Of a stretch of 64,000 bases of DNA, positions 1 to 4,487 are shown piece by piece (within the stretch, counting starts at the first letter, position 1; each line of letters starts with the position of its first letter). This stretch comes from Elioraea sp. Yellowstone. GTDB lineage: Bacteria; Pseudomonadota; Alphaproteobacteria; Acetobacterales; Acetobacteraceae. The DNA lies in assembly GCF_006704265.1 (NCBI RefSeq), contig NZ_VIKA01000001.1:1-64000 (forward strand). Direction: 5' to 3'. A model generated the notes under the pieces. That model was not told where the DNA came from. It did no database searches and worked only from the letters and a program-made list of their open reading frames with translations. The position numbers were made by a program, and so were the translations under genes.

Positions 1-1761
1 GTCGCCCGCCGCCGCCACGCGCGAGAGCTCCGCGACGGCGCGCTCGCGCCGCGCCTTCTCGCGCCAGCTGCGCGCCGCTGGTGCGGCGAGATCGCCGAGC
101 ACCCGCCCGAGCGCAGGCATGGCCTCGCCGCGGTGCATCCGTTGCAGCGCCGCATAGACCGCGATCGTCGCGACCGCGGCGTCGGCGGGACTGGCCGCCT
201 CGCCCACCGCGGCGAGTTCGCTGTCGAGCCGACCATCCACCTGCACCGCGATGAAGGCGGCGATGTGCCGGTCGAAGGGCAGGATCCCGGCCGGCAGGCT
301 GCCCGCCGCGGCCTCGAGCGCACGCAGGAGTGCCGGCAGCGTCGAGACATGGCGCTGGCCGAGCAGCGGCGAGAGGCAGGGCAGGGCCGGGTTCAACTGG
401 TAGAGCAGCCGCTCCGTGCCCGCCCCCATCGCCGTCGAGCGGCGGATCAGCCGGTACTGGCGCGCCTTCCGCTCGAGCGCGACCGGATCGGCATGGCGGT
501 CGCCGCAGGCGGCCGCCCAGCGGGCGATCGCCAAGCTGTCCACCAGGTCCTCGAGCGCTCCGACATCGAGCGCATGCGGTCCGGGCCCCAGAGCGGCCTC
601 CGCCAGCACCGGTCCGAGCGCGTCCGGCATCAGCGCGGCACCACGCCAGAACAGCGGCGCGCGTGGATCGATCAGCGCGATCGTGCGGCAGAGCATGGTA
701 TCGAGCACCAAGGGATCGACCGCGCTCGCGTCGTCCTCGGTCGCCTCGCGCAGCCGGGCGGCGAGCTGCCCATCGCCCAGCGCGCGCTCGGTCCAGACCG
801 CGATCGCGCCGGTGCGCGCGGCCGCGATGCCCTCGTTCCAGTGCGTGCCAAGCGTGGCGGCCAGGCTGCGGGTGTCGCGCGGCTGGGCCGGGCCGATCGC
901 CAGCGGTCGCGTCGCCTTGCGGATCGGCCGCGCGCTGATGGAACGGGCACGCGCGGAGCCCGGCCAGCCGGCGAGCTCGCCGGGACCCGGGCGATGGTCG
1001 GGATCCTCGGCGAGCAGGCCGCGCACCAGGGTGACAAGCCCGCCCGGCAGGCGATGTTCGCCCAGCACCGCGATCAGGCTGCCGCGCTCGAGCTTCGCCC
1101 GTGTCGCTGCGGCGTCATCGAGCCCGGCCATAGGCCACTGTCCCGTGGCAAGAGCGACGAGCGTCACCCCCAGCGCATAGAGATCGTCCGCGATCGTGCC
1201 CTCGCCGCGCCCGGCCGGCAGACAGAGGGCGGAGGGGGCCGGCTCCACCACCGCGGGCTGGGCGAAGCCGGCCGGCAGGGCGAACCCCTCCCCCAGCATG
1301 GCCGGTCCGCCGGCGGGCGGGCGGAACAGGTTGTCCGGCCGGATCCCGCGATGGGGGATGCCGAGATCGGCGAGCGCCAGCAGCACCAGCCCGACCGGGC
1401 GGACGATGTTCTGGATCAGGTCGCCCTCGCGCAGCGGCGCGCGCTTCTCGCCGCGTGGCAGGAGCGCCGGGCCGGGCGGCTGGGGATACACGATCAGGCG
1501 CGCCTCGCGCCCCTCCCACGGCACCACGTCGTGGGCGAGCGGGCGCATCAGATGGGGGATGTCCTCCTCCATCGTGAGGCGCTCGATCGCGCGCAGGCGC
1601 GCCGGATGATGGGTGCGGCAGACCACGGCCAAGCCGGGCGGCGCGGCGGCCGCGAGCGGCCGGGCGGCGAAGGCCGGGAGCCCACCGCCGATCACGCCCC
1701 GGACGGGGCTCAGCGGATCGACGACGTGATCGCCGATCCGCGTCTGCCCTCCGCTCGCCAT
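1..1761 (-). CDS. Protein kinase-fold protein, probable pseudokinase (C-terminus beyond window)
   Basis: The frame is open from an ATG at 1761 to the window edge (587 codons, no stop), so the C-terminus is missing. GGAGGG five bases upstream fixes this start over the in-frame ATG at 1773. Residues about 40-265 keep the outline of a Ser/Thr kinase C-lobe: a catalytic-loop equivalent HRGIRPDN (137-144), a DLYALG motif (193-198) matching subdomain IX, and LLAEDPDHRP (249-258) matching subdomain XI. The key catalytic residues are altered: HRD is HRG, the DFG position reads GEG (157-159), and no VAIK-type lysine is evident near GLAVVCRT (43-50). The remaining about 320 residues are Ala/Leu/Arg-rich and match no domain I recognise. 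It lies 67 bp downstream of purA on the same strand. Pseudokinase status is inferred from these motifs; partners and function are unknown. Confidence 0.75.
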   Translation of the reverse strand, partial: MASGGQTRIGDHVVDPLSPVRGVIGGGLPAFAARPLAAAAPPGLAVVCRTHHPARLRAIERLTMEEDIPHLMRPLAHDVVPWEGREARLIVYPQPPGPALLPRGEKRAPLREGDLIQNIVRPVGLVLLALADLGIPHRGIRPDNLFRPPAGGPAMLGEGFALPAGFAQPAVVEPAPSALCLPAGRGEGTIADDLYALGVTLVALATGQWPMAGLDDAAATRAKLERGSLIAVLGEHRLPGGLVTLVRGLLAEDPDHRPGPGELAGWPGSARARSISARPIRKATRPLAIGPAQPRDTRSLAATLGTHWNEGIAAARTGAIAVWTERALGDGQLAARLREATEDDASAVDPLVLDTMLCRTIALIDPRAPLFWRGAALMPDALGPVLAEAALGPGPHALDVGALEDLVDSLAIARWAAACGDRHADPVALERKARQYRLIRRSTAMGAGTERLLYQLNPALPCLSPLLGQRHVSTLPALLRALEAAAGSLPAGILPFDRHIAAFIAVQVDGRLDSELAAVGEAASPADAAVATIAVYAALQRMHRGEAMPALGRVLGDLAAPAARSWREKARRERAVAELSRVAAAGD

Positions 1762-1828: not shown

Positions 1829-3118
<1,290 letters not shown>

Positions 3119-3122
3119 CAGC

Positions 3123-4262
3123 TCAACCTTCCAGAGGGATCGCCTCGCCGTCCCGGGCGAGATGGGTGCAGCCGAGCCGGCGCGCCTCGGCGAGCGGATC
3201 GTCCACCGCGGCGAGCGCGGCAACGGTGGCGAAGCCCGCCTCGCGCAGCCGCGCCGCCTGGCGGGCCGGCGTGCCGGCGGGCACGAAGACGCGCGGCCGG
3301 GGCGGGCGCGGTCGGGCCACGGTGAGGGCGGCATCCGGGTAGAGGGTGACCCCGGTGGCGTACTCCTCGCCGGCGCGATAGCCGCCGCCGCGACCGAGCT
3401 CGTCGGCGAGCGAGGCGGAGAAGATCGTGAAGGCGACGCCGCGGTGGTAGCGCAGACCGCGGAACTCCAGGGGATCCGCCGTAAGCCGGATCGCCGGGTC
3501 GCGCGCGCGCACCGCCGCCACGGTCGCCGCGAGCCGGCAGGCCAAGTCGCGCGCGGGTGGCGGCAGCGTGGCGGCGGCGAGCGCCTCGAGAGCGCGGTCG
3601 GCCGCCCCCGCGGCGTGCAGGAGCTCGTCCAGCGTGTCCGCGATCGGTCCGGCCAGCGCCGCCACCTCGGCCGCATCCTTGCGGTCGAGGGCGTGGCGCA
3701 GGCTGGCCTCGCGCTCGGGCGGCAGGGCGAGGGGGGCGAGCAGCTCGTCCGCGAGCGTCGGCAGCGTCAGGTCGAAGCTCACCCCCGGCACGCCGAGCGC
3801 GGCGAGCGCCTCGGCTGCGACCGCGATCACCTCGGCATCCGCCTCGGCGCAGTCGGCGCCGATCAGCTCGATCCCCGCCTGGGCGAACTGGCGTGCCGCG
3901 CGCAGCTCGGAGCCGCGCACGCGCAGCACCTGGCCCGCGTAGGAGAGGCGCAGCGGCCGCGGCGACCGGCCGAGCCGCACCGCGGCGATGCGCGCCACCT
4001 GAGGCGTGATGTCGGCGCGCAGCCCCATCATGCGCTGGCTCACCGGGTCCATCAGCCGGAAGGTGACCTCGGCGGTCGCGGCACCCATGCCGCCCAGCAG
4101 CCCCTCCTCGAACTCGAGCAGCGGCGGCTTGACCCGCTCGTAGCCGTGTGCGGCGAACACCGCGCCCATGGCCTCGATGGCGGCGGCCTCGGTCTCGGCC
4201 TCGGGCGGCAGGAGGTCGCGCAGGCCCGGCGGCAGCAGCGCGATGGCGGCGGGTTCGGTCAT
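3123..4262 (-). CDS. hisZ: ATP phosphoribosyltransferase regulatory subunit
   Basis: A 379-residue paralogue of histidyl-tRNA synthetase that has no tRNA-charging role. It pairs with the short form of HisG to make the first enzyme of histidine synthesis and to carry feedback control. The N-terminal segment [15 protein letters not shown] and the class II synthetase-like stretch [23 protein letters not shown] (cited by its first and last residues, about 80-102) support this. The ATG at 4262 starts the conserved N-terminus and is preceded by a purine-rich stretch. The matching hisG is not in the window. The 225 bp between this gene and emrB (4263-4487) show no gene. Confidence 0.93.
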
Positions 4263-4487
4263 CGGCGCCGCCTCTAGCAGGGTTTGGCGCCGCTGGTGAG
4301 GGGGCAGGCTGCGGCGGCGCTGGTGCTCGTCGTGCATCCGCGGCGGCACGGGCTGGCGGTCAAGCTGATCCGGCGCCCTCAGGTGGTCGTGATCGGCGGG
4401 TCCTGCACCGCGGCCTCCCACACGCCCGCCCTCTGGGCGATGACGCAGGCTCCGATCGCCGCAGCGGCCGCACCGGCCAGCGGTGCG

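Follow-up and report, generated by a model that had tools for sequence, protein, structure and literature searches.

At one end of a contig of Elioraea sp. Yellowstone, behind hisZ and purA, lies an open reading frame whose product resembles a protein kinase and seems to lack the residues needed for catalysis. Is this protein a pseudokinase, as a preliminary description considered probable, and with what does it work, if not with a substrate? The window, i.e., the whole stretch of 64,000 nucleotides that was analysed, corresponds to bases 1-64000 of contig C111 (102 kb, in a genome of 3.8 Mb), and the gene is cut by its edge (Table 1).

Table 1. Features of the window that bear on the putative pseudokinase (residue numbers refer to the window protein)
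Feature	Position	Strand	Basis or remark
Pseudokinase gene	1..1761	-	open frame, 587 codons from ATG; 3' end missing at the contig end
Helical domain, residues 288-587 as present	1..900	-	model of the E. tepidiphila homologue (L077)
Kinase-fold domain, residues 1-270	952..1761	-	AlphaFold2 model of L077 aligned with the window sequence; kinase matches
DFG equivalent MLG, residues 155-157	1291..1299	-	Asp lost (Met155), Gly kept
Degenerate catalytic loop HRGIRPDN, residues 137-144	1330..1353	-	Asp lost (Gly139), Asn kept
Val47 where active kinases have the ATP-binding beta-3 lysine	1621..1623	-	alignment to solved kinases
purA (adenylosuccinate synthase)	1829..3118	-	upstream; frame 1829-3676, start MANVTVIG; order in relatives
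hisZ (ATP phosphoribosyltransferase regulatory subunit)	3123..4262	-	upstream of purA; frame 3123-4421

Kinase fold and catalytic residues

The list of open reading frames places the start of the frame at a GTG at position 1791; the ATG adopted here matches the first residues, MASGGQ, of the Elioraea tepidiphila homologue L077, a protein of 662 aa that is 82% identical to the window protein. The nearest named relatives belong to Elioraea. The gene reaches base 1 of the contig, and about 75 codons are missing in comparison with L077, complete homologues having a median length of 664 aa. The missing C-terminus was recovered in part: 20 residues homologous to the L077 tail are encoded at the end of another contig of the same genome, C51, followed by a stop codon and then by the gene of a small membrane protein, hereafter the partner. 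The gap between the two parts is estimated from the length of L077 at about 55 residues. The dN/dS ratio of the window gene against L077 is 0.235 over 587 codons, with 0.226 for residues 1-270 and 0.25 for residues 288-587, which indicates purifying selection in both domains.

The window protein alone matches the Pfam Pkinase model weakly (E 0.026), and a search of the PDB with this single sequence retrieves StkP at 1.8e-5. All 37 kinase domains scanned, out of 77 named homologues, match Pkinase at a threshold of 0.01, the best at 1e-8. A family profile finds solved kinases, PknB among them, with a best E of 3.8e-12. The profile was built from alignment A4, which holds 78 sequences with E. tepidiphila first (80 candidates; L101, L107, and L143 omitted); an initial alignment covered 56 loci, with L027, L029, and L030 omitted. 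AlphaFold2, run on L077 with A4 as input, gave a kinase fold for residues 1-270, the part for which the preliminary description had proposed a fold prediction, and the model as a whole has a mean pLDDT of 94.0 and a pTM of 0.88. Residues 4-271 of the model match kinases (Foldseek, VIA) with Z up to 21.5; WNK1 and WNK3 stand at the top with this value, and many other kinases lie within 1 Z of them. Both C-lobe motifs on which the original proposal rested are present in frame, DLYALG as residues 193-198 and LLAEDPDHRP as residues 249-258.

All three catalytic residues, namely the beta-3 lysine, the HRD aspartate, and the DFG aspartate, are absent in the window protein. It had been noted earlier that HRD reads HRG and that the ATP lysine is missing, and both points hold, at residues 137-139 and at Val47. 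It had also been stated that DFG is replaced by GEG: the loss of the aspartate stands, but Met155-Leu156-Gly157 is the better location, since in profile alignments to solved kinases its LG falls opposite FG. The loss is shared by the family. In A4 a lysine at 47, an aspartate at 139, and an aspartate at 155 each occur in 0 of 78 sequences. In a wider set of 151 non-identical homologues, which are related and hence not independent sequences, the beta-3 lysine is found in 1 of 148 (L024), the HRD aspartate in 2 of 150 (L023 and L162), the DFG aspartate in 0 of 150, and no member of the 151 has two of the three together. Close homologues with intact HRD and DFG would have spoken against a pseudokinase; what was found is no residue of the three in any sequence of A4 and never more than one in the wider set. 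The HRD position is mostly HRA, HRG, or HRS across the family, with asparagine in place of the aspartate in 6 of 150. At the beta-3 position V, Q, I, and A predominate, leucine being found in 12 and arginine in 11 of 148 and tryptophan in none. L023 has the HRD aspartate and has lost the catalytic-loop asparagine instead.

Residues that serve the fold have been kept: His137 in 143/150 homologues, Asn144 in 149/150, Gly157 in 148/149, the alpha-F aspartate (Asp193) in 149/149, and Arg257 in 150/150. Arg141 is present in 138/150 and Arg55 in 37/37. Since the catalytic residues are gone and the fold residues are kept across homologues, the loss appears to be old and the fold maintained. Judged from these sequences, the identification of the window protein as a pseudokinase is strongly supported.

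Helical domain, tail, and membrane partner

In the L077 model the kinase fold is followed by a mostly helical domain that runs from about 288-295 to approximately 627, and then by a C-terminal helix (629-661) whose hydrophobic part, 643-661, lies where the protein ends. Every one of the 78 named homologues that reach a stop codon has a hydrophobic stretch of 19 residues within its last 45, and this helix is therefore read, from sequence, as a putative tail anchor. The helical domain has conserved residues of its own, e.g., Trp323 and Cys462, each in 147/148 homologues. Against Pfam it yielded hits in single members only and no common match. When the domain alone was compared with PDB sequences (37 of 77 members), six hits were obtained (best E 5.7e-8), each of them short and to a designed armadillo or single-chain coiled-coil protein; they were read as an effect of composition and set aside.

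The partner is a small membrane protein of about 160 aa (155 residues in the copy on contig C51). In all 19 loci with longer flanks that were inspected by eye, it lies 3' of the pseudokinase at -25 to +99 nt; 18 of these 19 partner loci were aligned. Of the 77 testable loci in named genomes, 73 have it immediately downstream. Of the 78 genes with a stop codon, 71 are followed by a complete partner gene (median gap 3 nt), two by a partner cut by the contig end, and four by none; the remaining one, L155, has no room downstream and was excluded from the count. The genomes of the four non-adjacent genes and that of L155 all carry a partner gene elsewhere (5/5). Such split pairs, with both genes kept, are known from the Magnetospirillum-like loci L136, L140, L142, and L155, where purA is still upstream of the pseudokinase, and from G616, where the two genes are interior to separate long contigs. 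In three of the four Magnetospirillum-like genomes the displaced partner adjoins rpoH; in the fourth (L233) no rpoH was found within the stretch examined around the partner.

The model of the partner has a pLDDT of 88.2 and a pTM of 0.67 and shows helices at 22-58 (broken), 65-88, 92-99, and 104-152. Hydropathy alone gives two or three clear membrane helices. Four membrane helices with both ends inside would perhaps fit the loop charges of +4, +1, -2, and +2. The C-terminal helix carries a conserved tryptophan. Searches of the partner against Pfam gave scattered weak hits, the commonest being a phage holin model, which 9 of the 71 members hit (best E 0.0017); against NCBIfam there was no convincing match (best E 0.0011, one member), and the best match by fold in the PDB had an E of 2.2.

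Neighbourhood, distribution, and correlated evolution

Of 73 named loci, 45 have purA on the same strand no more than 500 nt upstream, and four more at 510-629 nt bring the count within 700 nt to 49. Both purA and hisZ are upstream in 40/65 loci, and rpoH follows within 2.5 kb downstream in 35/62. The order hisZ-purA-pseudokinase is annotated in Azospirillum thermophilum too. Two genes often found further upstream are taken for serC and serA, the former being so annotated in Azospirillum. The order is an old one, looser than the link to the partner and compatible with shared transcription. The position behind purA had been thought to hint at a link with nucleotide metabolism or simply at shared transcription; as the main link the former does not hold up (45/73, against 73/77 and 131/131 for the partner), and the latter may apply. 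In Azospirillum ramasamyi, where the pair is located on a large replicon, a gene annotated as a class A beta-lactamase lies close by (L217, 11671-12582).

A search of 385 alphaproteobacterial genomes (E up to 1e-20 for the pseudokinase and up to 0.01 for the partner) found the pseudokinase in 131, the partner in 133, both in 131, and neither in 252, counts whose agreement is inflated by shared descent. The two genomes with the partner only are 84% and 75% complete. Three small genomes of 1.4-1.8 Mb rated 99-100% complete (G361, G485, and G045) have the pseudokinase. In two of the 131 (G411 and G655) it is held as two adjacent pieces, perhaps owing to frameshifts or assembly errors. With a single-sequence search, 91 of 299 genomes of the window's order match, some of them weakly, and 30 of 60 relatives have a match; two of six genomes of the same genus, 75% and 88% complete, have none. 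The distribution is thus patchy, and the pseudokinase is not generally essential. A search of 299 genomes of the phylum gave matches in 15, with whole-length matches only within Alphaproteobacteria; the seven from outside the class are confined to the kinase part and were regarded as other kinases. When the window protein alone was used to scan named genomes, 92 pattern matches and no confirmed relative were obtained. The named set used throughout was obtained with a family alignment (A3), of whose 311 relatives the best 80 were used, so that it is biased to close relatives.

Extra copies were also observed. A second pseudokinase gene without an adjacent labelled partner occurs at L209, L210, L227, and L229, and the copies at L209 and L210, from two genomes of one genus, are also next to ychF. 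G049 and G461 each contain three additional partner genes that lack an accompanying pseudokinase (L197, 6377-6898; L198, 6278-6874; L199, 6058-6495; L200, 5365-5973; L201, 5282-5728; L202, 5529-6050); their neighbours, among them a hybrid histidine kinase and a FecCD transporter, reveal no common theme. The whole pseudokinase-partner pair is duplicated in tandem at L203 (5327-10660). At L204 (4722-9891) the order is pseudokinase-partner-pseudokinase-partner on the same strand, and the array adjoins flhA (FHIPEP).

The tree distances of pseudokinase and partner at 31 loci correlate with a partial r of 0.705 when purA, hisZ, and rpoH are held fixed, and none of 2000 permutations reached this value; the same measure gives 0.314 for the pseudokinase with purA, 0.302 with hisZ, and 0.269 with rpoH. 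As shared descent inflates such correlations and permutation removes the inflation only in part, the contrast between pairs weighs more than the permutation count. A search for covarying columns between the two proteins returned repeated signals on few columns, which resemble clade splits and not contacts.

Interpretation and relation to known systems

The computed kinase fold with its lost catalysis, the hydrophobic tail, the neighbouring partner, the co-occurrence, and the correlated evolution can be brought under one explanation. The tail-anchored pseudokinase and its membrane partner probably form a single non-enzymatic inner-membrane unit that recruits or regulates proteins. The N-terminal kinase fold, its phosphotransfer chemistry gone, would act as a protein-binding head, and the large helical domain would join this head to the C-terminal membrane helix. 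As nothing lies behind that helix, almost the whole pseudokinase should face the cytoplasm, held at the inner membrane by its tail beside the partner. The partner would then be the sole part with much membrane or periplasm contact and may sense or anchor, while the head would recruit client proteins. On this arrangement the two proteins would make a physical complex with the role of a scaffold or a switch. A stronger proposal is that they represent an undescribed, old two-protein signalling or scaffold unit of the alphaproteobacterial membrane, in which the dead kinase has become the cytoplasmic component of an obligate pair and the partner its sensor; we put this forward tentatively, its chances being somewhat short of even.

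Other readings differ from this one mainly in what they ask of the kinase fold. The fold might catalyse another reaction, such as AMP transfer or glutamylation, with Asn144, Arg141, and Arg55 reused; SelO and SidJ offer precedents, as far as the available text of a recent review goes (PMC12599244), and the conservation of these residues (149/150, 138/150, and 37/37) is perhaps higher than a scaffold needs. The asparagine and the arginines may, however, simply hold the loop together, and SidJ is described there as reusing the very residues that are lost here, the DFG aspartate (0/150) and the lysine (absent in 147/148), so we regard this as unlikely. Far less probable is a kinase that is still active by means of a lysine on a different strand, the arrangement of WNK kinases, for which a migrated lysine is described in the same available text (PMC12599244). 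The first rank of WNK1 and WNK3 by structure (Z 21.5) would agree with it, but these matches are tied with those of many other kinases, a migrated lysine cannot replace two aspartates missing almost family-wide, and the columns examined around the beta-2 strand (residues 22-35) hold no conserved lysine. A decaying remnant, to which the lost catalytic residues and the two-piece genes of G411 and G655 might point, has practically no chance: it is already contradicted by the dN/dS of 0.235, by matches in the 385-genome search that are, as listed, without internal stop codons, and by the conservation of the non-kinase domain. Shared inheritance with the partner in many Alphaproteobacteria likewise argues for a conserved non-kinase part and not for a decayed gene.

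Two further readings attach the protein to other machinery. A part in protein export, like that of EssB/YukC in type VII secretion, finds a model in EssB, a transmembrane dead kinase in such a role according to the review's available description (PMC12599244). The second copies at L209 (6572-8617) and L210 (6163-8208) lie 560-880 nt behind an ImpA_N gene (type VI) on the same strand, IcmF precedes both, and one of the stretches (L225) also has TssF, VasE/TssK, and a VgrG-like gene; the tandem array at L204 lies beside flhA. Against this, most main copies examined adjoin housekeeping genes, and in a third genome of the genus (L227, L228) the six scanned neighbours include no secretion gene. We consider the export reading rather improbable, and marginally more so the proposal that the pseudokinase controls HisZ or PurA, the products of neighbouring genes in its operon, and with them histidine or nucleotide synthesis. 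The hisZ-purA-pseudokinase order is indeed old; purA is near in 45/73 loci only, however, the pseudokinase keeps its partner beside it in other gene contexts as well, and the partial correlations with purA and hisZ are less than half that with the partner (0.314 and 0.302 vs. 0.705).

If the two-protein unit is as proposed, roughly one in three of the genomes sampled from the class would have it (131/385), even some of 1.4 Mb, and public records would list its dead kinase wrongly as a kinase. Two Azospirillum records give the pseudokinase the name 'serine/threonine protein kinase', and the gene after it is annotated there as hypothetical. The protein should thus not be counted as a kinase in kinome surveys. 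With its fixed and unnamed membrane partner in 131 of 385 genomes, it makes a good case for what the kinase fold does without catalysis, and cultured hosts are available in Elioraea, Thalassospira, Paramagnetospirillum, and Azospirillum.

Seven bacterial families in which pseudokinases are abundant are described in the available text of the 2025 review, which calls bacterial pseudokinases largely unexplored experimentally (PMC12599244). Among the matches listed by our literature searches there was no paper on the present family. Hanks-type Ser/Thr kinases such as PknB and StkP share its fold but keep the lysine, the HRD aspartate, and the DFG aspartate that it lacks, and in contrast to them it ends with its membrane helix and has no further domain after it. 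LanL and the MAD6 defence kinase (NCBIfam) match weakly in 37/37 and 35/37 of the kinase domains scanned, in the kinase part only and with scores far below the curated cut-offs (36 vs. 650 and 31 vs. 460 bits, respectively).

Of the pseudokinases in the review's available descriptions, the GLW group is nearest in layout; it has GLW for HRD and Leu or Trp for the beta-3 lysine, and the pattern of the present family differs, at least when compared by description (PMC12599244). ActPs2 is described with Arg for that lysine and Asn for the HRD aspartate (PMC12599244), which the family shows in only 11/148 and 6/150 members. ActPs3/MviN resembles it as a membrane-associated dead kinase domain, with a C-terminal membrane region in many members, and the MviN pseudokinase domain recruits a partner protein; ActPs3, however, is actinobacterial and marked by a hallmark deletion in the activation loop, and the MviN domain is described as lying inside a larger transmembrane protein (PMC12599244). 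EssB/YukC is likewise described as a transmembrane pseudokinase that serves as a scaffold (PMC12599244). It differs in belonging to Firmicutes and to a secretion machine, whereas members of the present family have a helical domain in addition, end in a predicted tail anchor, and mostly lie beside housekeeping genes. Type VII genes were absent among the pseudokinase neighbours scanned, and EssB among the best 50 fold matches listed, whose places are filled by other kinases. By analogy, and within what those descriptions cover, EssB and MviN would be the nearest models of mechanism. Since the defining motifs of GLW are absent, EssB and MviN are nearest in mechanism, and the partner is unnamed, the protein is provisionally filed as a new pseudokinase family with a new partner, set apart from GLW and ActPs2 by their published descriptions as available, and not as a new kind of system.
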